Shown here: positions 20,629-37,288 of the stretch, one piece after another | How the letters are laid out: the number at the start of each line of letters is the position of its first letter | Position numbering within the stretch: position 1 is the stretch's first letter | Assembly (NCBI RefSeq): GCF_023276405.1 | Contig: NZ_JALRMO010000001.1 | Location: 310,001-374,000, forward strand | Length of the DNA stretch: 64,000 bases | Direction of reading: 5' to 3' | Source of the DNA: Paenibacillus hamazuiensis | GTDB lineage: Bacteria; Bacillota; Bacilli; Paenibacillales; NBRC-103111 | Translations under genes and position numbers: made by a program | The notes under the pieces: generated by a model | What the model saw: the letters and a program-made list of their open reading frames with translations, nothing else | Database searches by the model: none | What the model was told of the DNA's origin: nothing

Positions 20629-20657
20629 TTGACGCTTTCAATCTGCGGACATATAAT
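20629..20657 (+). promoter_or_regulatory. Sigma-A promoter upstream of the GntR gene
   Basis: TTGACG (20629-20634) and TATAAT (20652-20657) are separated by 17 bases, a near-consensus promoter. The tandem TTATAGGACA-type elements start 4 bases after the -10, where a bound repressor would block transcription. Confidence 0.65.
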
Positions 20658-20660
20658 TAG

Positions 20661-20740
20661 GATTAGTACATTATAGGACATATATGGAGAGTTTAGGGGT
20701 TCGAAGCTTGCCGATCGGCTTTATAGGACAAAATAGGCAC
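20661..20740 (+). promoter_or_regulatory. Tandem 10-base operator elements (TTATAGGACA type)
   Basis: GATTAGTACA and TTATAGGACA are adjacent at 20661-20680. A second pair, TTATAGGACA and AAATAGGCAC, lies at 20721-20740. The same tandem pair occurs at 36238-36257 just after the frlB-like promoter. The natural candidate protein is the GntR/HutC regulator encoded downstream at 20952. The protein-site link is inference. Confidence 0.55.
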
Positions 20741-20809: not shown

Positions 20810-20881
20810 TTGACATTATTTGTATTGAATTATAACATGAATGTAATATAATTTCGTTTATGTTATTATTTATAACATAAA
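20810..20881 (+). promoter_or_regulatory. Second promoter region with a perfect inverted repeat
   Basis: TTGACA (20810) lies upstream of TATAAC and TAATAT candidates. A perfect inverted repeat, TTTATGTTAT-N5-ATAACATAAA, occupies 20857-20881, about 70 bases before the GntR start. A half-site ATAACAT occurs again at 20832. It may be an autoregulatory operator distinct from the TTATAGGACA elements. Confidence 0.5.
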
Positions 20882-20951
20882 CATTACACATCCTTCGTCT
20901 TCGCGATGAAGCGTAGTTTTTGAAGGGGGATTTTCTTTGGGGGGTGAGCGG

Positions 20952-21683
20952 ATGGATAACCATCAATCGATTGATCAGGATACGGAAACCCCGCTTTATG
21001 TGCAGCTGATCGAAAAGTTCCGGAACATGATCGAAACCGGGGAGATGCAGTCGGGAGAACGTTTTCCCGCCGAGCTGGAGCTGGCGAAGCGGTACGGCGT
21101 GGCCCGGATTACGGTCCGAAGCGCGATCGCGGAGCTTGTGCAGGACGGGCTGCTCGTGCGGCATCAAGGCAAGGGCACCTTCGTGGCGGAGCAAAAAATC
21201 GACCGCGAGCTCGTCAGCGTGGCGAGCTTCACCGACCGCATGAACTCGCGGGGCATTCGCGCCGGCTCGCGCCTGGTCAGCGTAAGAACCGTCAAGGCGA
21301 CAGGCAAGCAGGCGAGGCTGCTCGGTGTGGAGGAAGGGGCGGCGATCGTCGAAATCGTACGGCTCCGCTTGAGCGACGGCGTACCGGTCGCTCTGGAAAC
21401 GTCGTGCCTGTCTGCGGAGCGCTGTCCCGGCGTCGAGAAGGAAGATTTGGTGGAGCAATCGCTGTACCATTTGCTTGACAGCAAATATGGCATTCGCCCA
21501 GCACATTCAAGCAAGACGTTGGAGCTCGCCCGTGCGATGACGAAGGAAGCCAAGCTGCTCGGCGTCAAAACCGGTACTCCGCTGTTTTTGTTGACCGCCG
21601 TCGTTTATTCGGAGGACAATCAGGTGATGGAGTACGTCAAAACGTTGTTCCGCGGAGACCGGTTTCGTTTTCAGGTTCATTAA
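20952..21683 (+). CDS. GntR-family (HutC type) transcriptional regulator, FrlR-like
   Basis: The 243-residue protein has an N-terminal winged helix (about 10-75; PLYVQLIEKFRNMIE, RYGVARITVRSAIAELVQDGLL, GKGTFV) and a C-terminal UTRA effector domain (about 90-235). HutC-type regulators sense sugars or sugar phosphates; in Bacillus the fructosamine locus is controlled by such a protein. ATG at 20952 follows GGGGTGAG; reading back to a TTG at 20937 is less likely. It is 51 bases ahead of a YesN-like response regulator on the same strand and probably co-transcribed. It is the best candidate to bind the TTATAGGACA elements. Confidence 0.9.
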   Translation: MDNHQSIDQDTETPLYVQLIEKFRNMIETGEMQSGERFPAELELAKRYGVARITVRSAIAELVQDGLLVRHQGKGTFVAEQKIDRELVSVASFTDRMNSRGIRAGSRLVSVRTVKATGKQARLLGVEEGAAIVEIVRLRLSDGVPVALETSCLSAERCPGVEKEDLVEQSLYHLLDSKYGIRPAHSSKTLELARAMTKEAKLLGVKTGTPLFLLTAVVYSEDNQVMEYVKTLFRGDRFRFQVH

Positions 21684-21734
21684 AGGGGAAGTGTGAATCT
21701 TCATTAATATGACACGATGAGAGGAGCCCGGAAT

Positions 21735-23252
21735 ATGGAGATTCTTATTGTCGAAGACGAAACGTTGATTCGGAAAGGTTTGGAACGGATGATCGGGGAG
21801 CTCGGCTACCGGGTCGCGGGGACGGCGGATGACGGAGAGACTGCGATGCAGTGGCTCGAAGGCCGCTCCGCGCCACCCGACCTGATCATCACCGATATTT
21901 TCATGAAATACGTGGACGGCCTGGAGTTGGTCGGGAAAGTCAATGCGTCTTATCCGGGCGTCAAATGCGCCCTGCTGTCCGGACATGACGATTTCCGGCT
22001 TGCCCAGCAGGCGATCAGCCTGAAGGTATGCCGCTATTTGACCAAGCCGATCAACCGGGATGAGCTGGGTGCCGCTTTGGGCGAAATCCGGGTCGAAGTC
22101 GAGCGGGACAAGCTGCGCAGGATGGATTTGCTCAAGTGGGAGCAGCGCAGCGCCAGCAGCGCTCTGTACATCAGGGACAAGCTGCTGTCCGATTTGCTTG
22201 AGGCGCGCCTTGTTTCGCCCCGGGACATTTTGCATCATGCCGATTGCTTCGATTTCGATCTGGAGGCGACTTTGCTCTCCGGCGGCGTCATCCGCCTGCA
22301 ATCGTCCGGCAGTCCCGTGTCGCAGAGGGATTCCTTGCTTTATTCCGTGGCAGTCAAGCATTTGTTCACCGAGACGATGCTCTCCGACTATCACGGCTTC
22401 GTGCTGCTCAAAGATTCGTGTACGCTCGTTTTCGGCGTGGATGAGCCGGAGCCGGAGCGGGTGCATGAAGCGGCCGCCCGGTTCGCGGATATGTCCGCAA
22501 GCATGCTGGGCGTGCCGGTCGTATTTGGCGTCAGCTCCCGGCCGGCCACTTTGCTGCAGTTTCGCCGGGCGGTCGCCGAAGCTAACGAACATATGGAGCG
22601 CTCCCGCGAGGAGCAGCGTTACTACCCTTCGGAGCTGGAGCAGAAGCTGCGCGTTTCCGTTCGCGCAGGGGATCGCGAAGGTGCGCTGGCCGATGCGCGC
22701 GCCGTCGTCGATGCGATTGCCTCAAGCGATGCGAATTCCGATTTTGTTTTGCGTTCCTTTTACAAGCTGGCCGAATCGCTGGAAGCGCTGTTCCGCGAGC
22801 TGGATCGACAGGTGGCGCCTCCCCGGCTCGCCGGGCTCACTCGAACCGAACTCGCCGAAACGATGCTCGAATGGCTGCACGCCGGCATCGCCGGGATCGG
22901 ACCGCATAGGCAAGGCCAGCATAACGACATTGTGGCCAGAGTGATTGCGCACATGCAGGAGCATTACGCCGACGGCGGCTTGAATTTGCAGCGTTTGGCC
23001 GATCTCGTGTATGTGCATCCCAACTATTTGACGCAAATTTTTCGCAAAATGACCGGCTTGTCGTGCATGCAATATTTGGCGAAGCTCCGCATGGAGCAGG
23101 CGAAAAAGCTTTTGCACGAATCCGATTTGAAAATCTCCGAAATTGCCGAAAAGGTCGGCTACGACAACCACTTGTATTTCAGCAGCTATTTCAAAAAGTG
23201 GATCGGCAAAAGTCCGTCCGGCTACAAGGAAGGACTTTCCTCCCATGATTGA
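21735..23252 (+). CDS. Response regulator, YesN type (receiver plus AraC domain)
   Basis: The 505-residue protein has an N-terminal receiver domain with acidic pocket VEDE and phospho-acceptor Asp in LIITDIFM (about residue 55), Ser/Thr switch LLSGHDD and Lys in YLTKP. A middle region of unknown fold follows, then a C-terminal AraC domain (about 405-500; GGLNLQRLADLVYVHPNYLTQIFRK). ATG at 21735 follows GAGAGGAG; an ATG at 21717 lies upstream of that site. It overlaps the histidine kinase start by 8 bases, so the pair is translationally coupled. Confidence 0.93.
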   Translation: MEILIVEDETLIRKGLERMIGELGYRVAGTADDGETAMQWLEGRSAPPDLIITDIFMKYVDGLELVGKVNASYPGVKCALLSGHDDFRLAQQAISLKVCRYLTKPINRDELGAALGEIRVEVERDKLRRMDLLKWEQRSASSALYIRDKLLSDLLEARLVSPRDILHHADCFDFDLEATLLSGGVIRLQSSGSPVSQRDSLLYSVAVKHLFTETMLSDYHGFVLLKDSCTLVFGVDEPEPERVHEAAARFADMSASMLGVPVVFGVSSRPATLLQFRRAVAEANEHMERSREEQRYYPSELEQKLRVSVRAGDREGALADARAVVDAIASSDANSDFVLRSFYKLAESLEALFRELDRQVAPPRLAGLTRTELAETMLEWLHAGIAGIGPHRQGQHNDIVARVIAHMQEHYADGGLNLQRLADLVYVHPNYLTQIFRKMTGLSCMQYLAKLRMEQAKKLLHESDLKISEIAEKVGYDNHLYFSSYFKKWIGKSPSGYKEGLSSHD

Positions 23253-25101
23253 ACGCCTCCGCCATTTTCTGAACCGCTCGTATAATACGCTGTCGCGAAC
23301 GATTTTTGTCAAACTGCTTCTGCTGCTGCTTATTCCGAACCTGCTTCTCGTCTTCGTCATTCAGCAGTTGACCGACAGGCAGGTCGAGCAAAAAGCGAGT
23401 GAAATTCAAAACACGCTGGTCGGTCTGGAGCACGCCGTAAACCGCGAGGTCAGCTCGCTTTTCGGCGTCGTCACCACGCTGACCAACCAACTGATCATCG
23501 AACCCGAGGTGCAGCGAATTTTGCTGTACAGCTGGCGGGAGGGCAGAGGGAGCCATCCGGGCGCAACCCCTACTCCGGACGCCGAGCTGAGGAAGCTGCA
23601 AATGCTCTACGACAACCAGGCGGCGATGCTGTCGCTGCTGTCCCGGTACCGCCTCGTCTGGACGAACATTTATTCGCTGGCGATCGTCGACACCCAAGGC
23701 AACATTTATTTAAGCACGGCGCAAAACTATCAAATTTATCCGCAGGATCTCGCAGCCTCCCGATTGCTGAAGGCGGCTTCGAACGACCCGCTGCCGTGGA
23801 GCATCGACGACGCCCTGACCAAAAACGAAAACATGATCACCATCTCCCGGAAAATATACGGGACGACGATGCCGCAGCAGGTGATCGGGCACGTTATCAT
23901 CAATCTTTCGTTAAACGAGATTCAAAATTCGTTCGATACGTACAACTATTTTGGAAAAATGGTATTCGGCATGTATAACGCGTCCGGCAACGGCAGGATG
24001 GTTTACGACGGCCGCCGGTTTTCCGCGGAGGAGGAGAACGTGCCTCTTTTCGCCGAAAGCGGGGAGATACAGCAGGGCGTGCCGTTTCGAAACGCCTCCT
24101 GGAATATGATCGTTAGGCAGATGGAAGGGCCGTCCGCGCTCGGGGCCCGCAACTATTTGTTCGTCGGGCTGGACGACCGGTATATACGGGAGCAGACGAA
24201 AGCGATCAGCGACAGCCTCAAATACGGCTATGCGGTTTTCCTCGCGATGGCGCTCGGCATTTCCTTGTGGGGAGCGACGGTCATGTCGCGCCGGATCGGG
24301 CGCGTGCTCAAAGCGATGCGGCAATTCGGCCAGGAACAGTGGGGGACGCGAATTGTGCTCAAGGGCTCCGATGAAATCAGCATCATGGGCAACACGTTTA
24401 ATTCGATGGCCTCCCATATCGAAGAGCTGCTGCGCGACGTGGCCGCCGAGCAAAACCTGAAGCGGCTGTTCGAGCTGAGGGTGCTGGAGTATCAGATCAA
24501 CCCGCATTTTCTTTACAACACGCTGGACACGATCCATTGGCTCGCCCTGGACAGCGAGCGGCCGCAAATCAGCCGGATGGTCGAAGGGCTGTCCAAGCTG
24601 TTCAGGATCATTTTGAGCAAGGGGAACGAAACGATCGCGCTGCGCGAGGAGTTCGAGATGGTGCGGATTTATTTGGACATCCATAAAATCCGCCTGGAGG
24701 ACCGCTTCGATTACGAGCTGCGCCTTCAGCCCGAAGCGCAGGAGCACAAGATCAGCAAGATCGTGCTTCAGCCGCTTGTCGAAAATGCGCTGCTGCACGG
24801 CATCCGCAGACTGCGTACGAAAGGGCTGATCACCGTCTCGGGCGAAATGGACGGGGATTACATCGTGCTGACGGTGGCCGATAACGGAATGGGCATGCCG
24901 GAGGAAAAGCTCGACAGGCAGCGGCGTTTGATCGACTCGGACGTGTGGAGCGAGGAGGCGATGGGCGGCTCGGGCTACGGCATGAAAAACGTCGACTCCC
25001 GGCTGAAGCTGATGTTCGGCGAGCGCTACCGGATGGACATCGAGTCCGGCGGCGAAGTTCCGGGAACGCGCGTGACGATCCGCATTCGCGTGGACGGATG
25101 A
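23245..25101 (+). CDS. Sensor histidine kinase, YesM type
   Basis: The 618-residue protein has a membrane helix (about 20-42), a large extracytoplasmic sensor (about 43-320), a second helix (about 325-345), a HAMP linker, a His_kinase domain with the acceptor in LEYQINPHFLYNTLD (about 420-434) and an HATPase domain with LQPLVENALLHGIRR, VADNGMGMP and GSGYGMKNVDSRL. YesM kinases sense extracellular carbohydrate and activate the partner YesN, usually turning on a nearby ABC importer. Here that is the transporter starting at 25600. ATG at 23245 is preceded by AAGGAAGG. Confidence 0.93.
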   Translation: MIERLRHFLNRSYNTLSRTIFVKLLLLLLIPNLLLVFVIQQLTDRQVEQKASEIQNTLVGLEHAVNREVSSLFGVVTTLTNQLIIEPEVQRILLYSWREGRGSHPGATPTPDAELRKLQMLYDNQAAMLSLLSRYRLVWTNIYSLAIVDTQGNIYLSTAQNYQIYPQDLAASRLLKAASNDPLPWSIDDALTKNENMITISRKIYGTTMPQQVIGHVIINLSLNEIQNSFDTYNYFGKMVFGMYNASGNGRMVYDGRRFSAEEENVPLFAESGEIQQGVPFRNASWNMIVRQMEGPSALGARNYLFVGLDDRYIREQTKAISDSLKYGYAVFLAMALGISLWGATVMSRRIGRVLKAMRQFGQEQWGTRIVLKGSDEISIMGNTFNSMASHIEELLRDVAAEQNLKRLFELRVLEYQINPHFLYNTLDTIHWLALDSERPQISRMVEGLSKLFRIILSKGNETIALREEFEMVRIYLDIHKIRLEDRFDYELRLQPEAQEHKISKIVLQPLVENALLHGIRRLRTKGLITVSGEMDGDYIVLTVADNGMGMPEEKLDRQRRLIDSDVWSEEAMGGSGYGMKNVDSRLKLMFGERYRMDIESGGEVPGTRVTIRIRVDG

Positions 25102-25144
25102 GGGCGTGCGGGGGCGGTTTGAGAGGATCCCGAGAATGGAAAAA

Positions 25145-25440
25145 GCCGCTCTCAGCCTCACGTCCCGGCAATGCCGGGGTCTGAGAGCGGCAAAATCCGC
25201 TCTCGGCCCATCTTGGGGGCTATTTCGGGCGGGAAAGGTCGGCGGAGAGCCGGAAAAACCGCCTCTCAGCCTCACGTCCCGGCAATGCCGAGGTCTGAGA
25301 GCGGCAAAATCCGCTCTCAGCCCATCTTGGGGGACATTTCGGGCGGCAAAGGAGGCGGAGAGCCGGAAAAACCGCCTCTCAGCCTCACGTCCCGGCAATG
25401 CCGGGGTCTGAGAGCGGCAAAATCCGCTCTCAGCCCATCC
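25145..25440 (+). repeat. Tandem repeat of about 113 bp with embedded hairpins
   Basis: A unit starting CTCAGCCTCACGTCCCGGCA begins at 25151, 25265 and 25378 (periods 114 and 113); the third copy is partial. Each contains CTGAGAGCGG-CAAAAT-CCGCTCTCAG, a 10-base perfect stem, and the smaller inverted repeat CCCGGCAATGCCGGGG. The spacer parts differ by a few substitutions. It lies between kinase and importer genes and could act as a terminator array or an insulating or mobile hairpin element. Confidence 0.85.
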
Positions 25441-25599
25441 TGCGTGCCTCACCCCAACCACATTAATTTTCTGCATATCATCCTCTTAAGATTGTTAATA
25501 TTTCGTGAAGGCGGCCTGCCTTATAATGAAGCCAAGAGGGAAAAGCCAGTACATCCTCATCCCAAACGGTGAATATCCACAAAGGAGGCAAGTCGAACA
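25441..25599 (+). promoter_or_regulatory. Promoter region of the family-1 sugar importer
   Basis: TATAAT lies at 25522-25527 without a good -35 hexamer at 17 bases, as is usual for promoters needing an activator such as YesN. AAAGGAGG follows near 25580. No TTATAGGACA element is present here. Confidence 0.4.
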
Positions 25600-26856
25600 A
25601 TGAACAAAAAATGGTTGCTCGCTTCACTTACTCTGGTTTTCGCTTTCGCCACCGCCTGTTCGTCCCAAACGGGCAGCACGCCGGCTCCGAAAGAAGGTGC
25701 AGGAACGCCGGCGAACAAATCAAATGAGCAGATCAAGATCACATGGTGGGATTTTCAGCCGAACCAGGCGATGATCGATGCTCTGAACACTTTGATTGCC
25801 GCCTACGAGAAAGAGCATCCGAACGTGAAAATCGAAAGAACGTTCGTTCCCTTCGCCGATATCAAAAACAAGCTGCTGCTCGGCTCGGCGGCCGGACAGC
25901 TTCCCGACATCGTCATGATCGACGGTCCGGATCATCAGGCGTTTGCTTCCGCCGGAGTGCTCGCCGACATTACGGAGCAGGTTAAAGCATGGGGCGAGGC
26001 GGATAAATATTTCGAAGCTCCGTGGAACGCAACGATGTACAAAGGCAAAAACTACGGAGTTCCGGTCAGCAACAACAACCTCGGATTGTTTTACAATGCC
26101 GATATGCTGAAGGAAGCCGGAGTCGAGCCGCCCAAAACGTGGGACGAGCTGAAGACGGTGGCCAAGAAGCTGAGCAAAAACGGCGTCTATGGCCTCGCGA
26201 TAGCGGCACCGAAAAGCGAGCAGCTCACGTTCCAATACCTTCCGTTCCTCTGGCAGGCAGGCTCGGACCTCACGAAGATCGACAATCCGGGAACGGTGGA
26301 CACGCTCAAGCTGTATAAGGAGCTGGTGGACAGCGGCTCGATGTCGAAGGAGGTTTTGACGCAGGATCAGCAAGCGACGTTCCTCCAGTTCATGGCGGGA
26401 AAAGTGGCGATGGTATTAAGCGGTCCGTGGCAGCTGCCGGCCTTGAAAGACGCGAAGTTCAACTGGGGACTCGTCGATCTGCCGTCCGGCAAGGAAAAAG
26501 CGACGATTCTCGGCGGCGACGACTGGGCGATCACGGCCACTTCGAAGTATAAGGACGTCGCCTGGGACATCATCAAATTTTCGCAAAAGCCGGAATATTT
26601 GAAGCCGCTGCTGATCGGCGGCGCGAGAATTCCGAGCCGCAAAGATTTGATCAACGACCCTTACTGGCAGACGGATAAATATATGAAAATTTTCGCCGAT
26701 CAGCATCAATATGCCAAAGCGCGCGCCTACGGCCCGAACTACCCGAAAATTTCCGAGGCCGTTCAAGATATGGTGCAGCAAACCGTCACCGGCGTGAAAT
26801 CTCCGGAGGATGCGGTGAAGGAAGCGACGGAAAAAATCAAGCCGTTGCTGCAATGA
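25600..26856 (+). CDS. Extracellular sugar-binding lipoprotein (family 1), FrlO-like position
   Basis: The 418-residue lipoprotein has a signal peptide ending in FATAC with Cys20 lipidated, followed by a family-1 substrate-binding fold (TWWDFQPNQAMIDAL, KLLLGSAAGQLPDIVMIDGPD, GKNYGVPVSNNNLGLFYN). ATG at 25600 follows AAAGGAGGCAAGTCGAACA. It feeds the two permeases downstream. In Bacillus the equivalent gene of the fructosamine locus is frlO; the shared FrlB, FrlC and FrlD-like genes here make an Amadori-type ligand plausible, but specificity is inferred. Confidence 0.92.
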   Translation: MNKKWLLASLTLVFAFATACSSQTGSTPAPKEGAGTPANKSNEQIKITWWDFQPNQAMIDALNTLIAAYEKEHPNVKIERTFVPFADIKNKLLLGSAAGQLPDIVMIDGPDHQAFASAGVLADITEQVKAWGEADKYFEAPWNATMYKGKNYGVPVSNNNLGLFYNADMLKEAGVEPPKTWDELKTVAKKLSKNGVYGLAIAAPKSEQLTFQYLPFLWQAGSDLTKIDNPGTVDTLKLYKELVDSGSMSKEVLTQDQQATFLQFMAGKVAMVLSGPWQLPALKDAKFNWGLVDLPSGKEKATILGGDDWAITATSKYKDVAWDIIKFSQKPEYLKPLLIGGARIPSRKDLINDPYWQTDKYMKIFADQHQYAKARAYGPNYPKISEAVQDMVQQTVTGVKSPEDAVKEATEKIKPLLQ

Positions 26857-26869
26857 GGCGGCATAAAAA

Positions 26870-26888
26870 GGGGAGGAGCCTCCTCCCC
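26870..26888 (+). terminator. Intercistronic hairpin between binding protein and permease genes
   Basis: GGGGAGGAG-C-CTCCTCCCC is a perfect inverted repeat 14 bases after the stop codon and 27 bases before the permease start. Without a T run it is more likely an mRNA stabiliser or attenuator that keeps the binding protein in excess over the permeases. Confidence 0.5.
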
Positions 26889-26915
26889 GATCGAAACATG
26901 GGAGGGAGAAGCTCC

Positions 26916-27851
26916 ATGACGGATCAGGCGTTGCCCAAAGCGGAGAGAGCTGTCTCCAAATCGGCTCCTCGGCGGATGCGGACGGGCTGGACCAACTATA
27001 TGTTCGTTCTGCCCGGAGGTCTTTTTGTACTTGTATTCCTTATATTCCCTATATTGTATAACATATGGATCAGTTTTCAGGATGTCACCTTAATGAATTT
27101 GAAAGGCGGGCACCGGTTTGTCGGATGGCAAAATTACTCGAAGGTGTTTGCCGATCCGCTCTTTAAAAGCTCGGTAAGCAACTCGCTGTATTTTACCGCC
27201 GGCAGCCTCGTATTCCAGTTCGGGCTCGGCTTCGCGCTGGCGCTCTTTTTCCACCGCCGGTTTCCGGGCAGAGACCTGATGCGTTCGCTGATCCTGCTTG
27301 GCTGGATGATGCCGATCGTCATTACCGGCACGCTGTTCAAATGGATTTTATCGGGCGACTCCGGCGTGTTCAACCATTTGCTGACGGTGCTCGGATTGAT
27401 CGACAAGCCGGTGTTTTGGCTGACGAATCAGAGCACGGCGCTGACGGCGACGACGATCGCCAACATCTGGATCGGCATCCCGTTTAACATGCTCATCCTG
27501 CTGGCAGGGCTGCAGGCGCTTCCGGAGCAGCTGTACGAGGCGGCGAAAATCGACGGCGCCGGCCGGCTGCGGCAGTTCACGCAAATCACGATCCCGCTGA
27601 TGCGGCCGACCATCTTCATCGTGCTGATGCTCGTGCTCATTTACACGTTCAAGGTGTTCGATCTGATTTACGTCATGACCGGCGGAGGGCCGGTGAACGT
27701 GACAACGGTGCTGCCGCTTTTTGCCTACAAGCTCGCTTTTAACAACTACGAAATCAGCATGGGCTCGACCGTTGCAAGCCTCATGTTCGTGTTCCTGATC
27801 GCTCTCGCATCGGTGTACTTATGGATGTCCAGGAAGGAGGAGAAGCTGTGA
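26916..27851 (+). CDS. Sugar ABC transporter permease (MalF/UgpA type)
   Basis: The 311-residue permease has six predicted membrane helices and the EAA loop YEAAKIDGAGRLRQFTQITIPL. ATG at 26916 follows GGGAGGGAG; in-frame ATGs at 26853 and 26898 would lie in the hairpin or ribosome site. It ends with a GTGA 4-base overlap with the next permease, so the two are co-translated. No ATPase is encoded nearby, so a shared MsmX-like ATPase is likely. Confidence 0.93.
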   Translation: MTDQALPKAERAVSKSAPRRMRTGWTNYMFVLPGGLFVLVFLIFPILYNIWISFQDVTLMNLKGGHRFVGWQNYSKVFADPLFKSSVSNSLYFTAGSLVFQFGLGFALALFFHRRFPGRDLMRSLILLGWMMPIVITGTLFKWILSGDSGVFNHLLTVLGLIDKPVFWLTNQSTALTATTIANIWIGIPFNMLILLAGLQALPEQLYEAAKIDGAGRLRQFTQITIPLMRPTIFIVLMLVLIYTFKVFDLIYVMTGGGPVNVTTVLPLFAYKLAFNNYEISMGSTVASLMFVFLIALASVYLWMSRKEEKL

Positions 27852-28690
27852 TCGCTCCCGGCAAATACAGCGCCCGCAGTTACATTACGGCCATCATTGC
27901 CGCTGCGGCCACGCTCGTCTACCTGTTTCCGATCTATTGGCTGTTCGTTACGTCCATCAAACCGATGAACGAGCTGTTCGCTTATCCTCCGCATTACATT
28001 CCGGTGGCGCCGACGCTGGAGGCGTATGTCCACAACTTCGTGACGAATACGGGCATTTTCCGCTACATCGGCAACAGCTTCGTCATCGCTGCCGGCACGA
28101 TGCTGCTTACGCTGCTGCTGGCAGCGCCGGCCGCTTACGGACTCGCCAGGCTGCCGATCCGCGGAAAGGGCGCCGTGCTGATCGTGCTGCTCGCCACGCA
28201 GATGCTGCCCAATATTATGGTGGCGATGCCGCTGTTTATCATGTTCTCCAAGGTGCAGCTGGTTAACAGCTACACGGCGCTTATTATCGCCAATACGACG
28301 CATACGCTGCCGTTTGCGGTGCTGGTGCTTCGCCCTTACTTTCTGGGCATCCCCGGCGGGGTGGAAGAGGCCGCAATGATCGACGGGTGCAACAAAGCGG
28401 GTGCGTTTTGGAAAATCGTGCTTCCGCTCGTTACGCCGGGTCTGCTTACGGTCGGCGCGATCAGCTTCCTGTGGGGCTGGGGCGACTTCATCTTCGCGCT
28501 GACGCTCACTTCCGATGAGACCGTGCGGCCGCTCACGATGGGGCTGAGCAAGTTTACCGGCGAATTCGGCACGCAGTGGAACTACCTGATGGCTGTTGCC
28601 GCCATAGCCGCCCTGCCGATCATCGTCATTTTCGCCTCGCTGCAAAAATATATCGTCAGCGGCTTGGCCAGCGGTTCTATGAAAGATTAA
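27848..28690 (+). CDS. Carbohydrate ABC transporter permease (MalG/UgpE type)
   Basis: The 280-residue protein has six predicted helices and an EAA loop EEAAMIDGCNKAGAFWKIVLPL. The probable start is GTG at 27848, preceded by AGGAAGGAGG and sharing GTGA with the previous stop; an ATG at 27821 is too deep in the neighbour. It completes the membrane part of the importer. It is followed within 30 bases by the hydantoinase A gene in the same direction. Confidence 0.93.
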   Translation: MIAPGKYSARSYITAIIAAAATLVYLFPIYWLFVTSIKPMNELFAYPPHYIPVAPTLEAYVHNFVTNTGIFRYIGNSFVIAAGTMLLTLLLAAPAAYGLARLPIRGKGAVLIVLLATQMLPNIMVAMPLFIMFSKVQLVNSYTALIIANTTHTLPFAVLVLRPYFLGIPGGVEEAAMIDGCNKAGAFWKIVLPLVTPGLLTVGAISFLWGWGDFIFALTLTSDETVRPLTMGLSKFTGEFGTQWNYLMAVAAIAALPIIVIFASLQKYIVSGLASGSMKD

Positions 28691-28717
28691 TTCCAACCAT
28701 ATAAAGAGGTGTTCAAC

Positions 28718-30763
28718 ATGAGTTATCGCCTTGGTGTCGATACCGGCGGAACGTTTACCGATATTGCTCTCATTCACGAACAAACAGGCAAGGTGCATGT
28801 GGCCAAGGTGCCATCGACTCCTCACGATCCGTCCGAGGCCGTCATTAACGGCGTGCATGAAATCGTAAATCAAACCGGGATCGACGTGGAAAGCATTTCG
28901 TTTTTCATCCACGGCTCGACCGTAGCGACGAATGCGCTGCTGGAGCGAAAAGGCGCCAAAACGGCGCTGCTGACGACCAAAGGCTTCCGCGACGTGCTGG
29001 AGATCGGCCGGCAGTCCCGGCCGAAGCTGTACGACTTCAAAGCGCGAAAAAAGCCGCCGTTTGTCCCGCGCGACCTGCGCATCGAAGTGAGCGAGCGGAT
29101 CAGGGCGAACGGAGAGGTGCTGGAGCCTCTCGATACGGAGGAAATCCGCGGGATCGCCCGCAGGCTGAAAAGCGAAGGCGTGCAGTCGATCGCCGTCTGC
29201 CTGATCAATTCCTACATCAACGATACGCATGAAAAAATGATCCGGCAAACGCTGCAGGAAGAGTACCCGGAAGCTTACACCACCTTATCGAGCGAGGTGC
29301 TGCCCGAATTCAAGGAATACGAGCGCACGAGCACGGTGGCGGCAAACGCTTACGTGCTGCCGAAAATGAAGGGCTACCTGAACCGCCTCGTCGGCAGCCT
29401 GAAGGAAACCGGCGTCTCGTCGGAGCTGTACATCATGCAGTCGAACGGCGGCATCATTACCACCGACAGCGCGATGCATACGCCGGCAAGAACGGTGCTG
29501 TCGGGGCCTGCCGGGGGGATTTTGGCCGGATTGTTCATTGTGGAAACGACGCCATACAAAGATCTGATCACCATTGACATGGGAGGCACGAGCCTCGACA
29601 CCGCTTTGATTGAAAAAGGCAAGCCGCAGTACACGACGATGAGCGAAGTGGAAGGCAGCCCGATCAAGCTGCCGATGATCGAAATGCACACGATCGGCTC
29701 CGGGGGCGGCAGCATCGCCTGGATCGATGCAGGCGGCGCGCTGCGCGTCGGGCCGCAGAGCGCCGGCGCGATGCCCGGGCCGGTATGCTACAACAAAGGC
29801 GGCATGGAGCCGACCGTCACCGATGCGAACGTCATTTTGGGGCGGATCAATCCGGGATATATTTTGAACGGCAAAATGAAAATGAATCTCGAGCTTGCCC
29901 GCCAAATGATGAAGGAAAAAATCGCCGACCCGCTCGGCATCACGATAGAAGAGGCGGCCGAAGGCATTCTGCGGGTCGTCAACGCCAACATGATTCGCGG
30001 CATCCGCGTCATTTCGATTGAAAAAGGCCATGATCCGCGCAACTTCTCGCTCGTCGCCTTCGGCGGAGCGGGGCCGGTTCATGCCGTCGACATCGGCAAG
30101 GAGCTCGGCTGCCAGGAAATCATCATCCCGCCGAACCCGGGCATCACGTGTGCGATGGGCATGCTGATGGCCGACGTGCGCCACGATTATGTGCAGACGG
30201 TGCTGTCCAGCGTCGCGCAGCTGAAGCTGGACGAAGCCAACGCCGTCATCGCTCATCTCGCGGAAGAGGCGCGCGGACAGCTGCGCAAGGAAGGCTTTGC
30301 GGATGCGGAAATTCATCTGCACGCCGCCCTTGACCTGCGTTATTTGCGCCAGGCGTACGAGATCGACGTGCCGGTGGCGGGCCTCACTTTGAATGCGGCG
30401 CTGCTGGAGCAGGCGGTGCGCGACTTCCACGCGCTGCATCATAAAATGTACGGCTTCAGCCGGGAAGGCGAAACCGTCGAGCTGATCAACATCCGCCTCA
30501 CCGCCATCGGCGCGATTCCGAAAATCCAGTTCGACAAAAAAGCTGAGGCATCCGGTGAGCTGGAGGCAGCGCCTTCGCGCAAGGTGTTTTTTGACGGTCA
30601 ATTTGTGGATACGCCGGTGTACAACCGTTCCGCTCTGCGAGCAGGCGCCGCCGTGGAAGGGCCGGCCATTTTGGAGCAGCTCGATTCCACGATCGTCATT
30701 CATCCGGGGCAGCGAGCGGTCACCGACGATTTCGGCAATCTGATCATTCATTTGCAAAACTAG
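28718..30763 (+). CDS. hyuA: Hydantoinase/oxoprolinase family protein, subunit A
   Basis: The 681-residue protein has the actin-like ATPase fold of HyuA/oxoprolinase: GVDTGGTFTDIAL near the N terminus, then TIDMGGTSLDTALI and a metal-containing core with GSGGGSIAWID. HyuA and HyuB form an ATP-dependent enzyme that opens cyclic amides (hydantoins, 5-oxoproline, or carboxylates such as acetone in related enzymes). ATG at 28718 follows AAAGAGGTG. It is 17 bases from HyuB. The substrate is not given by sequence; its place inside a fructosamine-type locus is unusual. Confidence 0.93.
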   Translation: MSYRLGVDTGGTFTDIALIHEQTGKVHVAKVPSTPHDPSEAVINGVHEIVNQTGIDVESISFFIHGSTVATNALLERKGAKTALLTTKGFRDVLEIGRQSRPKLYDFKARKKPPFVPRDLRIEVSERIRANGEVLEPLDTEEIRGIARRLKSEGVQSIAVCLINSYINDTHEKMIRQTLQEEYPEAYTTLSSEVLPEFKEYERTSTVAANAYVLPKMKGYLNRLVGSLKETGVSSELYIMQSNGGIITTDSAMHTPARTVLSGPAGGILAGLFIVETTPYKDLITIDMGGTSLDTALIEKGKPQYTTMSEVEGSPIKLPMIEMHTIGSGGGSIAWIDAGGALRVGPQSAGAMPGPVCYNKGGMEPTVTDANVILGRINPGYILNGKMKMNLELARQMMKEKIADPLGITIEEAAEGILRVVNANMIRGIRVISIEKGHDPRNFSLVAFGGAGPVHAVDIGKELGCQEIIIPPNPGITCAMGMLMADVRHDYVQTVLSSVAQLKLDEANAVIAHLAEEARGQLRKEGFADAEIHLHAALDLRYLRQAYEIDVPVAGLTLNAALLEQAVRDFHALHHKMYGFSREGETVELINIRLTAIGAIPKIQFDKKAEASGELEAAPSRKVFFDGQFVDTPVYNRSALRAGAAVEGPAILEQLDSTIVIHPGQRAVTDDFGNLIIHLQN

Positions 30764-30780
30764 GACGAGGAGGACGGACC

Positions 30781-32508
30781 ATGAGTGGAAAAGTAGATGC
30801 CATCACGATAGAAGTTATGAAAAACGCGTTTCATACGATTGCCGAAGAAATGGGCGTTGCTCTGATCAAGACGGCGTTGTCCACGAACATCAAGGACCGG
30901 ATGGACTGCTCGACGGCGATTTATACGAAAGAAGGCAAGCTGGTGGCCCAGGCGGAGCATATTCCGCTGCACCTCGGGCTCATGCCTTCCGTCGTCAGCG
31001 AGGTGCTGAAAATATACAAACCGGGCGAGCTTAAGGAAGGCGACGCGATTTTAATCAACGACCCGTATATCAGTGGCTCGCATCTTCCGGATATTTTTAT
31101 GATCTCCCCGGTGTTTCACGAGGGGCGGCTTGTCGCATTGACCGCGAACATCGCGCACCATATCGACGTCGGCGGCATGACTCCCGGCAGCTGCTCGGTG
31201 AAAACGACGGAGATTTTCCAGGAAGGACTCCGGCTGCCGGGCATCCGCGTCCGCAAAGCCGGCGTGATGGACGAGGAGGTGCTGCGCCTCTTGACGAAAA
31301 ACTCGCGGACCGGCAAGGAGATGCTTGGCGACATTTACGCCCAGCTCGCCGCCAACAAAATCGGCGAAACGCGCCTGAAGGAGCTGTTCGAGCGGTATTC
31401 GGCCGATTTTACGGAAACGTGCATGAACGAGCTGATGAATTACTCGGAACGGCGGCTGCGTGCGGCGATCCGCAAAGTTCCGGACGGCATTTACACGTTC
31501 GAGGATTATTTGGAAGGCGACGGGCTTACGCAGGATTTGATCAAAATCGCGGTGCAGGTATGCGTCAAGGACGACGAAATCCACGTTTCGTTCGACGGCA
31601 CTTCCCCGCAGGCGAAGGGCTCGATCAACTCGACGATCGGCGTGACGAGCGCATGTGCTTATTATGCGGTCAAAGCGATGCTCGATCCGGAGGTGCCGCC
31701 GAACGACGGCGCGTATCGGCCGGTTCACGTGCATGCCGAGGAGGGTACCGTCGTCAACGCGAAGTTCCCGGCAGCCGTCTCCAACGCCAACGGCAACACA
31801 TCGCAGCGCATCACCGATGCGATTCTCGGCGCACTCGCGCCGGTGCTGCCTGAGGAAGCGATCGCCGCCTGCTCCGGCTCGATGAACGGCCTCAACTTCG
31901 GCGGCTTTAACGAAGAGACGGGCGAATATTTCAGCTACATCGAAACGTGCGGCGGCGGGCAGGGTGCTGTGCTCGGCCTCGACGGCATGAACGGCGTGCA
32001 CACGCATATGACCAACACGCGCAACACTCCGACCGAAGTCATCGAACAATCTTATCCGCTGCTCGTCAAAAAATACTCGTTCGTCGAAAACGGCGGCGGT
32101 TACGGCAAATTCCGCGGTGGAGTGGGAATCACTCGGGAAATCGTTTCCGAGACCGACGACGTCATCGTCACGATCACGTCCGAACGGCAGCGGACGAGAC
32201 CGTGGGGGCTGTTCGGCGGTAAGGAAGGCGCAGCATCGGAATGCATTCATATCACGGCTGCGGGCGAAGTGAACCACCTGCCGCCCAAGGCGACGCTGAC
32301 GATTCAAAAAGGCGATACCGTCATCATCCGTACGCCGGGCGGAGGCGGTTATATGGACCCGCTCGAACGGGATCCCGAGCTCGTACGGCAGGACGCGCGC
32401 TTCGGCTACGTCAAGCCGGACGAAGCGGCCCGCGAATACGGCGTCGCTTTCATCCCGGGCACGCTGGAGATTGACGCGGAGCGGACGGCGGAGCTGCGCC
32501 GGAGATGA
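30781..32508 (+). CDS. hyuB: Hydantoinase/oxoprolinase family protein, subunit B
   Basis: The 575-residue protein shows the HyuB family features: an N-terminal DAITIEVMKNAFHTIAEEMG, GSHLPDIFMISPVF with conserved polar residues, AHHIDVGGMTPGS, and a GGGQGAVLGLDGMNGVHTHM region followed by FRGGVGITREI. It is the partner of the preceding HyuA, and together they make the heteromeric ATP-hydrolysing enzyme. ATG at 30781 follows GACGAGGAGG. Length fits the family. Downstream, 38 bases lead to the FrlD-like kinase. Confidence 0.93.
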   Translation: MSGKVDAITIEVMKNAFHTIAEEMGVALIKTALSTNIKDRMDCSTAIYTKEGKLVAQAEHIPLHLGLMPSVVSEVLKIYKPGELKEGDAILINDPYISGSHLPDIFMISPVFHEGRLVALTANIAHHIDVGGMTPGSCSVKTTEIFQEGLRLPGIRVRKAGVMDEEVLRLLTKNSRTGKEMLGDIYAQLAANKIGETRLKELFERYSADFTETCMNELMNYSERRLRAAIRKVPDGIYTFEDYLEGDGLTQDLIKIAVQVCVKDDEIHVSFDGTSPQAKGSINSTIGVTSACAYYAVKAMLDPEVPPNDGAYRPVHVHAEEGTVVNAKFPAAVSNANGNTSQRITDAILGALAPVLPEEAIAACSGSMNGLNFGGFNEETGEYFSYIETCGGGQGAVLGLDGMNGVHTHMTNTRNTPTEVIEQSYPLLVKKYSFVENGGGYGKFRGGVGITREIVSETDDVIVTITSERQRTRPWGLFGGKEGAASECIHITAAGEVNHLPPKATLTIQKGDTVIIRTPGGGGYMDPLERDPELVRQDARFGYVKPDEAAREYGVAFIPGTLEIDAERTAELRRR

Positions 32509-32546: not shown

Positions 32547-33326
32547 ATGCGGGTAGCAGGCGTAGGCTTAAGCTGCATTGATTTGTACGAGAACCTGAAC
32601 CGGTCGTATCCTACGGGCAACAGCGTCGATTTCGTCATCCATTTGAGCCGGCTCGGCGTGGAAACGTCCATGGTAAGCGTCGTCGGCACCGACGATTACG
32701 GCAGGCAGATGGCCGACGTTTTGCGCAGGGAAGGCGTCGACGTCTCTCATCTGCGTGTAGCCGAAGGCAGGACGGCGATGTTTCGGATGGATCTGAACGG
32801 AAACGACCGGGTTCACAAGGAAAAAATCGAAGGCGTCATGGCGCGCTTCGCCTTGACCGAGGAAGATATCGAGTTTATCGCCGGTCACGACTGCGTGCAT
32901 ACGAACTTTTCCGGGCGAGTGACCGGCTCCCTTCCGGTGTTTAAACAGCGGGGCCTGATGACGGCGTTCGACTTTTCGACGCGCGTCTATAAGGAGGTCG
33001 AGTCCGCGCTGCCGCATATCGATTACGCGTTTTTCTCCTACGAGAAAGAGGACGATTTCATCAAAGAATACGTAGCCTGGGCGCAGCGACTCGGCCCCCG
33101 CGTGGTGATCGCAACGTTGGGCGAAAACGGCAGCCTCGCCTACGACGGCAGCCGGTTCTACCGCGAGGGTATCGTCCCCGCCGAAGTGGTGAACACCGTC
33201 GGGGCGGGCGACTCCTTCTGCGCCGGCTTCATGTACGGCATCTTCCAAGGCCGGTCCATCCAGGACTGCCTCCTCGGCGGTGCCGAGGTAGCCTCGAAAG
33301 TCGTAGCCAAGTTCGAGCCTTATTAA
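32547..33326 (+). CDS. frlD: PfkB-family sugar kinase, fructoselysine 6-kinase-like
   Basis: The 259-residue protein is a ribokinase-fold enzyme with TIxLG-type motif VIATLGENGS and the catalytic loop VNTVGAGDSFCAGF. Its N-terminal SCIDLYENLNRSYPTGNSVDF resembles Escherichia coli FrlD, as do RLGVETSMVSVVGTDDYG and GVMARFALTEEDIEFI. FrlD phosphorylates the C6 of fructosamines such as fructoselysine. The enzyme here would make the substrate for the FrlB-like deglycase encoded at 36284. ATG at 32547 follows CGGGAGG. Specific amine part unknown. Confidence 0.85.
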   Translation: MRVAGVGLSCIDLYENLNRSYPTGNSVDFVIHLSRLGVETSMVSVVGTDDYGRQMADVLRREGVDVSHLRVAEGRTAMFRMDLNGNDRVHKEKIEGVMARFALTEEDIEFIAGHDCVHTNFSGRVTGSLPVFKQRGLMTAFDFSTRVYKEVESALPHIDYAFFSYEKEDDFIKEYVAWAQRLGPRVVIATLGENGSLAYDGSRFYREGIVPAEVVNTVGAGDSFCAGFMYGIFQGRSIQDCLLGGAEVASKVVAKFEPY

Positions 33327-33974: not shown

Positions 33975-34826
33975 ATGATCATAGACGTACACTCGCATCC
34001 GATTTTTTACAAAGACATATGCGACGACAAGGAAAAGCTGAATTTCCGCAAAGAGCAGTTCGGCATCTTCAAGCAGTCTCCATACCCGCTGGAATCGGCG
34101 CTTATCGAGATGGATTACATGAACGTCGCCAAGACGGTGCTGCTTCCCGAGGACATCTCGACGCTGTACGGGGGCAGCATCATCACCAACGAAGAGATCA
34201 AAACAATCGTCGATCTCGCTCCGGAACGCTTCATCGGCTTCGCCAGCGTCGATCCCCGCCGCAAAGATGCGGTGGAGGTGCTGGAGCGCGCTTTTACCGA
34301 GCTTGGCCTGATGGGGCTGAAGCTGCATCCGTCGAAGCAGCAGTTTTATCCGTACGAGGAGATGCTGAAGCCGATTTATGAGGTTTGTCTCAAATACAAC
34401 AAACCGGTCATGTTCCACGCCGGGATGAGCTGGCAGCCGAACGCTCCGGCGAAATTTTCCCATCCGCTGCACTTCGAAGACGTGGCCATCGCTTATCCGG
34501 AGCTGCGCATGTGCCTGGCCCATTTCGGCTGGCCATGGGTTCACGAGACGGTCATGCTGCTGCTGAAATATCCGAACGTGTACACGGACACGTCCTTGCT
34601 GCACATGGACAACGCCAAAGATTTTTACGAGCAGGTGTTTACGCGCAATATGGGGCCGCTCTGGATCGAGCGCAATCTCGGCGATAAAGTCATGTTCGGC
34701 ACGAACGCGCCCCGTTTCCGGGCCAAGAGGCTGCTGCCTGCGCTCGAAGGGCTGAATTTCAGAGAGAAGACGCTGCAAAAAATTCTCGGCTTGAATGCGC
34801 TGAAATTTATCGGGCTGGAAGATTAG
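33975..34826 (+). CDS. Amidohydrolase family 2 protein
   Basis: The 283-residue TIM-barrel protein has the metal-binding start DVHSHP, then LKLHPSK, FHAGMSWQPN and LAHFGWPWVHE. In most relatives a Asp follows in a FGSDxP-type motif; here the corresponding place reads FGTNAPR, so the expected Asp is Asn. It may be a decarboxylase or hydrolase, or a catalytically altered member. The start ATG at 33975 lies after GAAAGGAAAGGA. It is the first gene after the repeat region and is followed at 10 bases by the YjbQ-like gene. Function in the locus unknown. Confidence 0.85.
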   Translation: MIIDVHSHPIFYKDICDDKEKLNFRKEQFGIFKQSPYPLESALIEMDYMNVAKTVLLPEDISTLYGGSIITNEEIKTIVDLAPERFIGFASVDPRRKDAVEVLERAFTELGLMGLKLHPSKQQFYPYEEMLKPIYEVCLKYNKPVMFHAGMSWQPNAPAKFSHPLHFEDVAIAYPELRMCLAHFGWPWVHETVMLLLKYPNVYTDTSLLHMDNAKDFYEQVFTRNMGPLWIERNLGDKVMFGTNAPRFRAKRLLPALEGLNFREKTLQKILGLNALKFIGLED

Positions 34827-34836
34827 GAGGGGGACT

Positions 34837-35265
34837 ATGGTCAAGCTGAAGAGCATTGTGATCCGCACGCGGGCCGAATTTCAAATGATCAAAATCACCG
34901 AGGAAGTCCGGGCGTTCGTAGCGGAATCGGGCGTGACAAACGGGCTTGCAGCCGTCATTACGGCCCATACGACGACCGGCATCATGGTCAACGAAGGGCT
35001 CGAATGCGTGGAAACGGATATCGAGGAAACGCTGGAGCGCCTCATTCCGAAGGACGCTCCTTATGCGCATGCACATTTTTTGCCCTCGTACGGGGCGACC
35101 GGCAGCAACTCGCCTTCGCATTTGAAGTCGATGCTGTCGGGCAACAGCTGTTTATTCGTCGTGCAGGACGGCAAAATGGTGACGGGCGACGCCCAGGACG
35201 TCTATTTGGCCGAATTCGACGGCCCGAAAGCCCGCAAGGTGTATATCCAGGTTATCGGGGAATAG
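34837..35265 (+). CDS. YjbQ family protein (secondary thiamine-phosphate synthase-like)
   Basis: The 142-residue protein carries the UPF0047/YjbQ signature: TAHTTTGIMVNEG (about 46-58), LKSMLSGNS, then TGDAQDVYLAEFDGPKARKVYIQVIGE at the C terminus. The family has been reported to replace ThiE activity weakly in Escherichia coli and its physiological role is unclear. Its position between an amidohydrolase and an FrlC-like epimerase suggests a task in the sugar-amine pathway rather than in thiamine synthesis, which is inference. ATG at 34837 follows TTAGGAGGGGG. Confidence 0.9.
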   Translation: MVKLKSIVIRTRAEFQMIKITEEVRAFVAESGVTNGLAAVITAHTTTGIMVNEGLECVETDIEETLERLIPKDAPYAHAHFLPSYGATGSNSPSHLKSMLSGNSCLFVVQDGKMVTGDAQDVYLAEFDGPKARKVYIQVIGE

Positions 35266-35277
35266 GAGGACATCCGC

Positions 35278-36102
35278 ATGATGAAGCTCGCCAATATGAA
35301 TCAAAATTACCATCGGTATCCGCTCGACTATTTTCTCGACTCGACGGTTCGCTGCGGTCTTGAGGCAATCGAGCTGTGGGCCGGCACCCCGCATCTGTAT
35401 GTCGATGACGCTTCCGCTTTGGAAGTGGCGGGAGTGCTGAAAATGATCAGGCAAAGAAACCTGGAGATCGTCTGTTTTACGCCGGAGCAGGCGATTTACC
35501 CGATCAATCTGTCCGCGAAGGACGATACGTGCCGGAAGAGAAGCGTCGAATATTTTCAAAAATGCATCCGGGTGACAAACGCGCTCGAGTGTTCGAAAAT
35601 GCTGGTCATCGTCGGATTCGGTTTTTACAACGAGCCGGCGGAGGAAGCGTGGAAGCGGGCAGCGGAGTCGCTGCATATTCTTGCCAAAGATGCGGAAAAG
35701 GCAGGCATTACGCTTGTGCTTGAGGCGATGTCGAACATCGGCTCCAACGTCATTTACAACCTGGACACGCTCCGCCGAATGCATGGCGAAGTGGGCTCTC
35801 CGGCGATGAAGGTGATGCTTGATACGATTTCGATGGCGCTGGCGGGCGAAACGATCGAAGATTACGGGGCCGCCTTCGGCGAAGACCTCGTCCATGTTCA
35901 TTTCCTGGACGGCGACGGGAAGACGACCGCCCATTTGGCGTGGGGGGAAGGGATTTTTTCGCTGGATGCGTTTGTGGACGGCCTGAAAAAAATCAGCTAC
36001 GGCGGGTATTTGACGCTCGAGCACATTGCCCCCAAGTACAACTGGGACCCGGAGGCTGCCGTACGTCAAAGCCTGGCAACCATCGGCTCGAAATTGCTGT
36101 AA
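35278..36102 (+). CDS. frlC: Sugar phosphate isomerase/epimerase, FrlC-like
   Basis: The 274-residue xylose isomerase-like TIM barrel protein resembles Escherichia coli FrlC (fructoselysine 3-epimerase): LEAIELWAGTPHLYVDD, CFTPEQAIYPINL, then LVLEAMSNIGSNVIYN, HVHFLDGDG and WGEGIFSLDAFV. The metal ligands would be the Glu of VLEAM, an Asp of MLDTI, the His of VHVHF and the late Glu of TLEHI. FrlC converts psicoselysine to fructoselysine. Two ATGs (35278, 35281) follow AGGAGGACATCCGC. It probably gives the cell access to C3-epimeric Amadori compounds; exact substrate not proved. Confidence 0.78.
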   Translation: MMKLANMNQNYHRYPLDYFLDSTVRCGLEAIELWAGTPHLYVDDASALEVAGVLKMIRQRNLEIVCFTPEQAIYPINLSAKDDTCRKRSVEYFQKCIRVTNALECSKMLVIVGFGFYNEPAEEAWKRAAESLHILAKDAEKAGITLVLEAMSNIGSNVIYNLDTLRRMHGEVGSPAMKVMLDTISMALAGETIEDYGAAFGEDLVHVHFLDGDGKTTAHLAWGEGIFSLDAFVDGLKKISYGGYLTLEHIAPKYNWDPEAAVRQSLATIGSKLL

Positions 36103-36206
36103 TGCTGTGCGTCTCTTTGTCGGATCGGCGGAATCCGCGGGTTCCGTGCCGGCAAAGAGGCGCGTTTTTTTCCCGGGTCGAACGGTTTTGGAAGCAGAAA
36201 AACATG

Positions 36207-36257
36207 TTGACAGCAGCGGAAAATATGATATAAATTATTATAGGACATTATAGTACA
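36207..36257 (+). promoter_or_regulatory. FrlB-like gene promoter with tandem TTATAGGACA operator
   Basis: TTGACA at about 36207 and TATAAA about 16 bases further form a promoter. TTATAGGACA (36238-36247) and TTATAGTACA (36248-36257) are adjacent direct repeats just downstream of the -10. They match the pair at 20661-20680. A repressor at this place would block initiation, so the frlB-like gene probably answers to the GntR regulator independently of the main operon. Confidence 0.6.
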
Positions 36258-36283: not shown

Positions 36284-37288
36284 TTGACTGAAACATTGGC
36301 TTATCAAAAGGCGCCGGCTCAATTGGAGAGCATTTTCGAGGCTTTTAAAAGCAGAACGATCCGCCGGGTGTTTTTCGTCGCCTGCGGCGGTTCCTCCGCA
36401 TTGATGTATCCGAGCAAATACTTTTTGGACCGCGAATCGAAAACGATCACCTCGGAAATATTCAGCTCGAACGAATTCATCCACCGCAACCCGCAATCGC
36501 TGAACGAAGAATCGCTCGTCATTCTCATGTCGCACAAAGGCAAGACGCCGGAGACGACGGAAGCGGCCAAATTCGCCAAAAGCAAAGGGGCGCTGACCGT
36601 ATCCCTCATGTACGTGGAGACGGCGCCGCTGGCCGATGCTTCGGATTTCATCGTCAATTACAGCTGGATTTCCGCAGGCAATATGGAGCCTCATCCGGAG
36701 ATTATGAACTACGCGATTTTGTACCGGTTGTCGATGGGGCTTTTGTACGTGAAGGAAGGCAACAAGAAATACGAGAAGCTGCTCAGCAGCCTGGAGAACC
36801 TCGGGGCGGTATTCGAAAGGGTGATGAAGCAAGTGTCGGAGCCGGCCAAGGCGTACGCCGAATCGGTTAAGGACGAGAAAATCATCTACACGATGGCGAG
36901 CGGTTCCAATTACGGCGTAGCTTACTCGTTTGCGATTTGCATTCTGATGGAAATGCAGTGGAAGCATTCGCACGCGATTCATGCCGGGGAGTTTTTCCAC
37001 GGGCCGTTTGAAATTCTCGACAAGGACGTTCCGTTCATCCTGCTGATGGGTCTCGACGAAACTAGACCGTTGGAGGAACGGGCACTGACCTTCCTCGAGC
37101 AGTATGGCGAGAAGCTGCTTGTCATCGACGCGAAGCACTTCGACTTGACCGGCATCGACGACGAAGTGAAGGGCTACCTGGCTCCGATCGTGATCAACTT
37201 CGCGCTCCGCATTTACGCTTTGGCGCTTTCCAAAGCAACCGGCCACCCGCTGGAAACGAGACGGTATATGTTCAAAGTTCCTTATTAA
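36284..37288 (+). CDS. frlB: SIS-domain protein, fructosamine/fructoselysine 6-phosphate deglycase-like
   Basis: The 334-residue protein has the SIS-domain sugar isomerase fold: RVFFVACGGSSALMYPSK, then LVILMSHKGKTPETTEAAK, and a second half with IYTMASGSNYGVAYSF, HAGEFFHGPFEILDKDVPF and DETRPLEER. It resembles FrlB of Escherichia coli and Bacillus, which splits fructosamine 6-phosphate into glucose 6-phosphate and free amine or amino acid. The start is TTG at 36284, 8 bases after GACAGGAGG. It has its own promoter and operator and ends at a strong terminator, closing the locus. Confidence 0.88.
   Translation: MTETLAYQKAPAQLESIFEAFKSRTIRRVFFVACGGSSALMYPSKYFLDRESKTITSEIFSSNEFIHRNPQSLNEESLVILMSHKGKTPETTEAAKFAKSKGALTVSLMYVETAPLADASDFIVNYSWISAGNMEPHPEIMNYAILYRLSMGLLYVKEGNKKYEKLLSSLENLGAVFERVMKQVSEPAKAYAESVKDEKIIYTMASGSNYGVAYSFAICILMEMQWKHSHAIHAGEFFHGPFEILDKDVPFILLMGLDETRPLEERALTFLEQYGEKLLVIDAKHFDLTGIDDEVKGYLAPIVINFALRIYALALSKATGHPLETRRYMFKVPY

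Follow-up and report, generated by a model that had tools for sequence, protein, structure and literature searches.

The window analysed here is a stretch of 64,000 nucleotides from Paenibacillus hamazuiensis and contains a Frl-like locus in which the GntR/HutC protein encoded at 20952 very probably has its operators in the tandem elements at 20661 and 36238. As predicted from sequence comparison, this protein would repress the promoters P1 and P3, with the response regulator YesN activating the importer promoter P2. The features of the locus are collected in Table 1.

Table 1. Features of the Frl-like locus, with positions in the window
Feature	Position	Strand	Remarks
Promoter P1 of gntR-yesN-yesM	20629..20657	+	TTGACG, 17 bp, TATAAT; 11/12 matches
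Operator O1 (predicted)	20661..20680	+	Tandem boxes GATTAGTACA-TTATAGGACA; conserved in G091 and G081
Extra single box TTATAGGACA	20721..20730	+	50 bp downstream of second O1 box
gntR, GntR/HutC-subfamily (UTRA) regulator, presumed repressor	20952..21683	+	Pfam GntR 1.2e-18, UTRA 2.2e-41
yesN-like response regulator, AraC-type DNA-binding domain	21717..23252	+	
yesM-like histidine kinase (Cache-like, HAMP, His_kinase, HATPase)	23236..25101	+	
Presumed YesN site	25463..25500	+	15-bp direct repeats TTAATTTTCTGCATA (25463-25477) and TTAAGATTGTTAATA (25486-25500), 23 bp apart
-10 TATAAT of importer-operon promoter P2	25522..25527	+	No good -35
ABC sugar importer: binding protein and two permeases	25600..28690	+	
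hyuA and hyuB, hydantoinase/oxoprolinase-type (caprolactamase-like) subunits	28709..32508	+	
frlD-like fructoselysine 6-kinase	32547..33326	+	NCBIfam NF007321, 310.8 bits vs cut-off 247
Amidohydrolase_2, UPF0047 (YjbQ-like) and FrlC-like epimerase genes	33975..36102	+	
Terminator-like hairpin with T run	36145..36171	+	Between importer operon and sis
Promoter P3 of sis	36207..36234	+	TTGACA, 16 bp, TATAAA; promoter search gives same -35, overlapping -10
Operator O3 (predicted)	36238..36257	+	Tandem boxes TTATAGGACA-TTATAGTACA
sis, FrlB-like SIS-domain deglycase, presumed repressor target	36284..37288	+	NF008481 137 bits, below cut-off 430; Pfam SIS

Among the Frl proteins of the locus, FrlD was identified above its cut-off; the SIS protein and FrlC are homologous to their Frl counterparts and score below the equivalog cut-offs. 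Being Frl-like with a HyuA/HyuB pair in addition, the locus probably serves a substrate other than plain fructoselysine, and the pair itself suggests a compound with a lactam or hydantoin ring, such as cyclised glycated glutamine. The same pair is kept inside the Frl-type operon of genomes G091, G081 and G089, and more distant homologs were identified in G093, G098 and G078.

The box consensus of the tandem elements is WTATAGNACA, arranged as two head-to-tail 10-bp units. Both predicted operators start 3 bp past the -10 hexamer and likely cover the transcription start. The earlier note described three equal direct-repeat pairs, each placed after a -10; the description holds for 20661 and 36238 and fails for 20721, where a single exact TTATAGGACA is followed by AAATAGGCAC, with only 5 of 10 bases in common between the two. 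This third box lies in the leader, 64 bp downstream of the P1 -10 and with no -10 of its own before it, and is a possible auxiliary half-site. The leader of G091 contains a single CTATAGGACA, at a distance other than that of the 20721 box.

The arrangement is a direct repeat, the two boxes agreeing at 6 to 10 of 10 positions in the eight best sites. The cores of the window sites, G[GT]AC-ATTATA-G[GT]AC, could also be read as an ordinary HutC palindrome GTAC-N6-GTAC that looks like a direct repeat only since GTAC is its own complement. This is very improbable, however: the sites of G078 (GAAC/GAAC) and G091 (GAAC/AAAC) are non-palindromic, the best inverted identity among the eight sites is 0.57-0.71, and most HutC operators are palindromes of another kind, with GT and AC 4 nt apart (PMC4494728), a configuration that the window sites do not present.

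Two head-to-tail boxes are rare in the genome. In the window, TTATAGKACA with at most one mismatch was found seven times versus 2.2 in shuffles, none of 100 shuffles reaching seven. Genome-wide counts were obtained by pattern searches, where the joined 18-mer TWRGKACATTATAGKACA with up to two mismatches has three matches in 8.8 Mb (O1, O3 and one inside a coding frame) and its reversed control pattern has none. The third match (L003, 758980) was rejected as an operator for its position inside an open reading frame. Of eight genomic copies of the 10-mer TTATAGGACA, three are in the locus. Relaxing the search of the same genome to three mismatches gave 24 matches versus 26 for the reversed control, so that single relaxed matches mean nothing alone; two of the 24 flank a second Frl locus of the same genome and prompted the comparison of paralogs described below. 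A search of 104 family genomes with the exact class pattern gave 13 matches, 5 of them in loci with a clade-1 GntR; the eight off-locus matches were discarded, all being within open frames and none near a frl-type gene.

The genome scan for paired sites that the earlier note proposed leaves O1 and O3 as the only good copies, and the motif is not one that is common throughout the genome with no relation to sugar genes. The regulon that the note had put forward is real but small, comprising two promoters of one locus in this genome. Chance similarity in AT-rich promoter DNA, to which the AT-rich motif and the TATA common to motif and -10 hexamers would lend themselves, is extremely improbable against the genome counts, the shuffles, and the conservation and SIS-promoter statistics presented below.

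Five further genomes of the family encode a GntR at least 58% identical to that of the window. In two of these, G091 and G081, the part of the locus running from gntR via the importer, hyuAB and frlD up to frlC is preserved, and the TTGACG/TATAAT pair is also found there ahead of gntR. A weight matrix built from the two window sites alone and applied to 19.5-kb stretches has its top match, in both genomes, after the -10 ahead of gntR, with 20.2 bits in G091 and 22.4 bits in G081 (shuffle maxima of 15.3 and 15.1 bits, 0 of 60 shuffles reaching the site score). Site identity is 75-80% versus 17-42% in flanking blocks compared ungapped, and the intergenic DNA beside the sites is otherwise diverged. 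The sis gene is directly after frlC with no box between in G091, and elsewhere in the genome in G081; as the predicted target of O3, sis is not conserved in G091.

Other members of the family differ in how clear their sites are. In G078 (GntR 59% identical) good sites were identified ahead of sis, an importer gene (sbp) and a kinase-like gene. Those of sis and sbp directly follow a -10, and the sis site, ATATAGAACA-ATATAGAACA, is a perfect direct repeat. This genome presents no orthologous YesN within the retrieved stretch. In G093 and G098 (GntR 58-59% identical) the best matches are weak, equalled by 7 and 14 of 60 shuffles, respectively, and the promoters contain several ACA boxes with no clean pair. 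A matrix match on the opposite strand upstream of sbp in G089 and G091 was rejected, being the -10 TATAAT itself. A scan of genome contigs for relatives of the regulator gave matches of at most 42% identity, with no orthologs among them.

The protein encoded at 20952 is assigned to GntR/HutC by PF00392 (N-terminal winged helix) and PF07702 (UTRA, C-terminal), both above cut-off. This membership stands despite the non-palindromic sites because it rests on the domains, and because direct-repeat exceptions, FarR (TGTATTAWTT repeats) and NagQ, are on record in the subfamily (PMC4494728). For assigning the boxes, G089 offers a natural exchange of regulators: it has the same locus and orthologous YesN/YesM (53-58%), but its GntR is 31% identical to that of the window. 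At 67-68% identity this protein is closer to GntRs belonging to a second type of Frl locus, one of them in the window's own genome. No TATAGNACA pair was found in the sis and yesN promoters of G089, which contain other boxes (TATAACATTATAATACA and TTATATAACA), and the second locus (5.09-5.10 Mb) has ATATAACATTATATAACG-type repeats past its -10s. The boxes therefore change with GntR and not with YesN. The earlier assignment of the operator to the GntR/HutC protein gains comparative support in this way, from the two domains and from boxes that appear to follow GntR across genomes.

Binding of the tandem boxes by YesN is very unlikely. AraC-type proteins often bind direct repeats, and yesN adjoins gntR in the window, G091, G081 and G089; against this, G089 keeps an orthologous YesN yet its boxes differ, G078 has the boxes and no orthologous YesN in the retrieved stretch, a position downstream of the -10 is a place for repression rather than activation, and a better candidate site for YesN is found at P2.

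The second Frl-type locus of the same genome (L151, G000:C1:5090531-5102239) comprises homologs of sis (81%), yjbQ (91%), the amidohydrolase gene and frlD, together with its own GntR (36%) and distinct but related tandem boxes after three promoters. In the window, the gntR leader (20810-20882) contains a possible second promoter (TTGACA, TAACAT/TATAAT) and a perfect 11-bp inverted repeat, GTTTATGTTAT-TATTT-ATAACATAAAC, absent in G091 and G081. The ATAACA/TGTTAT ends of this repeat resemble the boxes of the second GntR, which makes cross-regulation possible.

The importer promoter P2 contains no tandem 10-mer pair. It has instead the pair of longer direct repeats listed in Table 1, the end of which coincides with the expected place of a -35. 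AraC-type activators typically use direct repeats that end at the -35 position and are spaced by about two helical turns, and the YesN kind of AraC-type response regulator agrees with P2 in repeat spacing and position, the YesN site of the window being a predicted one. The repeat is the sole copy in its own genome and is conserved in four genomes (that of the window, G091, G081 and G089), each of which encodes an orthologous YesN. Conserved with the regulator, this AraC-type repeat supports a putative control of the importer promoter by YesN, as had been suggested earlier for a promoter near 25522 without the tandem box. The gap between yesM and the importer also contains, at 25138-25439, 2.7 copies of a GC-rich 114-bp tandem repeat, 94% alike, which is absent from the same gap of G091, G081 and G089.

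The shape of the site was compared across promoters of SIS genes. Among 15 such promoters, the ACA pairs are sharply concentrated at offset 10 (17 versus an expected 0.8); a lesser peak, at offset 5, is mostly due to related promoters of a single clade. When the window was left out and one representative of the offset-5 clade was kept, nine promoters remained, not fully independent as some have related GntR partners, and the 10-bp ACA pair was identified in six of them (null 0.49; 0 of 400 shuffles reach this). The AC[AG] version is present in eight of the nine, versus 1.6 in shuffles, and no 10-bp enrichment was found for the complementary TGT in the same nine. The GntRs paired with the other SIS-deglycase promoters that have ACA boxes 10 bp apart are about 30-36% identical. 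The 10-bp periodicity is thus confined to the coding strand, appearing with ACA but not with TGT, and the tandem site seems fixed in orientation to transcription.

The same strand preference, along with boxes that cover the likely transcription start, would also be expected if the boxes acted in RNA, as part of the 5' leader, and not as DNA operators. Such a role is highly improbable, since in the FrlR-proper clade the first box (TTATAATACA) overlaps the -10 itself and would not be transcribed, no Rfam match was found in 15000-45000, and the locus encodes a DNA-binding regulator. With the boxes read as DNA operators, the balance tips slightly towards a general rule: Frl-type GntR/HutC repressors about 30-46% alike would all read head-to-tail boxes spaced by 10 bp and oriented with transcription, as a distinct operator class in a mostly palindromic subfamily, and paralogs would be told apart by bases within the box (TATAGNACA versus TATATAACA).

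Frl loci L152-L163 and L167, whose GntRs form a third clade with 46% identity to E. coli FrlR, contain a nearly invariant TATAATACAARACATAACA with ACA every 5 bp, in most cases ahead of both frlC and sis. In L183 three successive boxes, TTACA-ATACGGTACA-ATATGATACA, are located upstream of sis between the arms CATCACGTTA and TAACGTGATG.

Three known HutC systems were compared with the window. FarR/MngR of E. coli has similar head-to-tail 10-mers with TGT...TAT / ATA...ACA ends (PMC4494728), and the predicted sites of the window have the same layout of boxes of about 10 bp ahead of the target genes. The reverse complement of the FarR box, AAWTAATACA, agrees in 8 of 10 bases with TTATAATACA, the box of related FrlR-type loci. 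Differences are the GntR of the window, only 25% identical to MngR, the box, TATAGNACA, and the metabolism served by MngR, that of mannosylglycerate. FrlR, the repressor of the fructosamine operon in E. coli and B. subtilis, regulates a FrlB/FrlD/FrlC-type locus like that of the window, and upstream of E. coli frlA there is a ACATTACATAACA that resembles the ACAAAACATAACA found in FrlR-proper loci. The locus of the window differs from FrlR loci by its ABC importer, its YesN/YesM pair and HyuA/HyuB, and its GntR is not a close relative of E. coli FrlR, with 29% identity to it versus 46% for another clade in the family. NagR/YvoA is the best match among solved structures (4u0v, 4u0w and 4wwc; E 1.7e-47) and serves as a model of release by a phosphorylated sugar effector. 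The NagR site is an inverted repeat, in contrast to the direct repeats of the window. As predicted, the operator of the window is one more of the known HutC direct-repeat kind; the generality of a 10-bp direct-repeat architecture among Frl-type regulators may be new, as no statement of it was found in the literature covered, a scope outside which were the subscription papers on FrlR and RegPrecise.

In the proposed wiring, GntR would sit on the boxes, either as a dimer or as two subunits separated by one helical turn, and block RNA polymerase at the promoters of gntR-yesN-yesM (P1) and of the sis deglycase (P3), the role of repressor being suggested by the position of the boxes. For FrlR of B. 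subtilis, it is contested whether the protein represses or activates, both having been reported (PMC7475707, PMC12632257). By analogy with FrlR and NagR, a phosphorylated sugar-amine intermediate would release GntR (PMC12632257). The importer and catabolic promoter P2 would not be a direct target of GntR. YesN and YesM would be made after the release of GntR and would sense a signal outside the cell, and YesN phosphorylated by YesM would most likely bind the P2 repeat and activate the importer and catabolic operon. The control of the importer by GntR would in this manner be indirect, via the amount of YesN and YesM.

These predictions provide a testable wiring for a glycated-amine utilisation locus, from repressor to two-component system to importer. 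The overall regulation is sensible and fairly ordinary; the head-to-tail operator is less usual. Many diverged examples would be added to the thinly documented class of HutC direct-repeat operators, which opens the question of how a family usually dimerising symmetrically on palindromes binds head-to-tail boxes.
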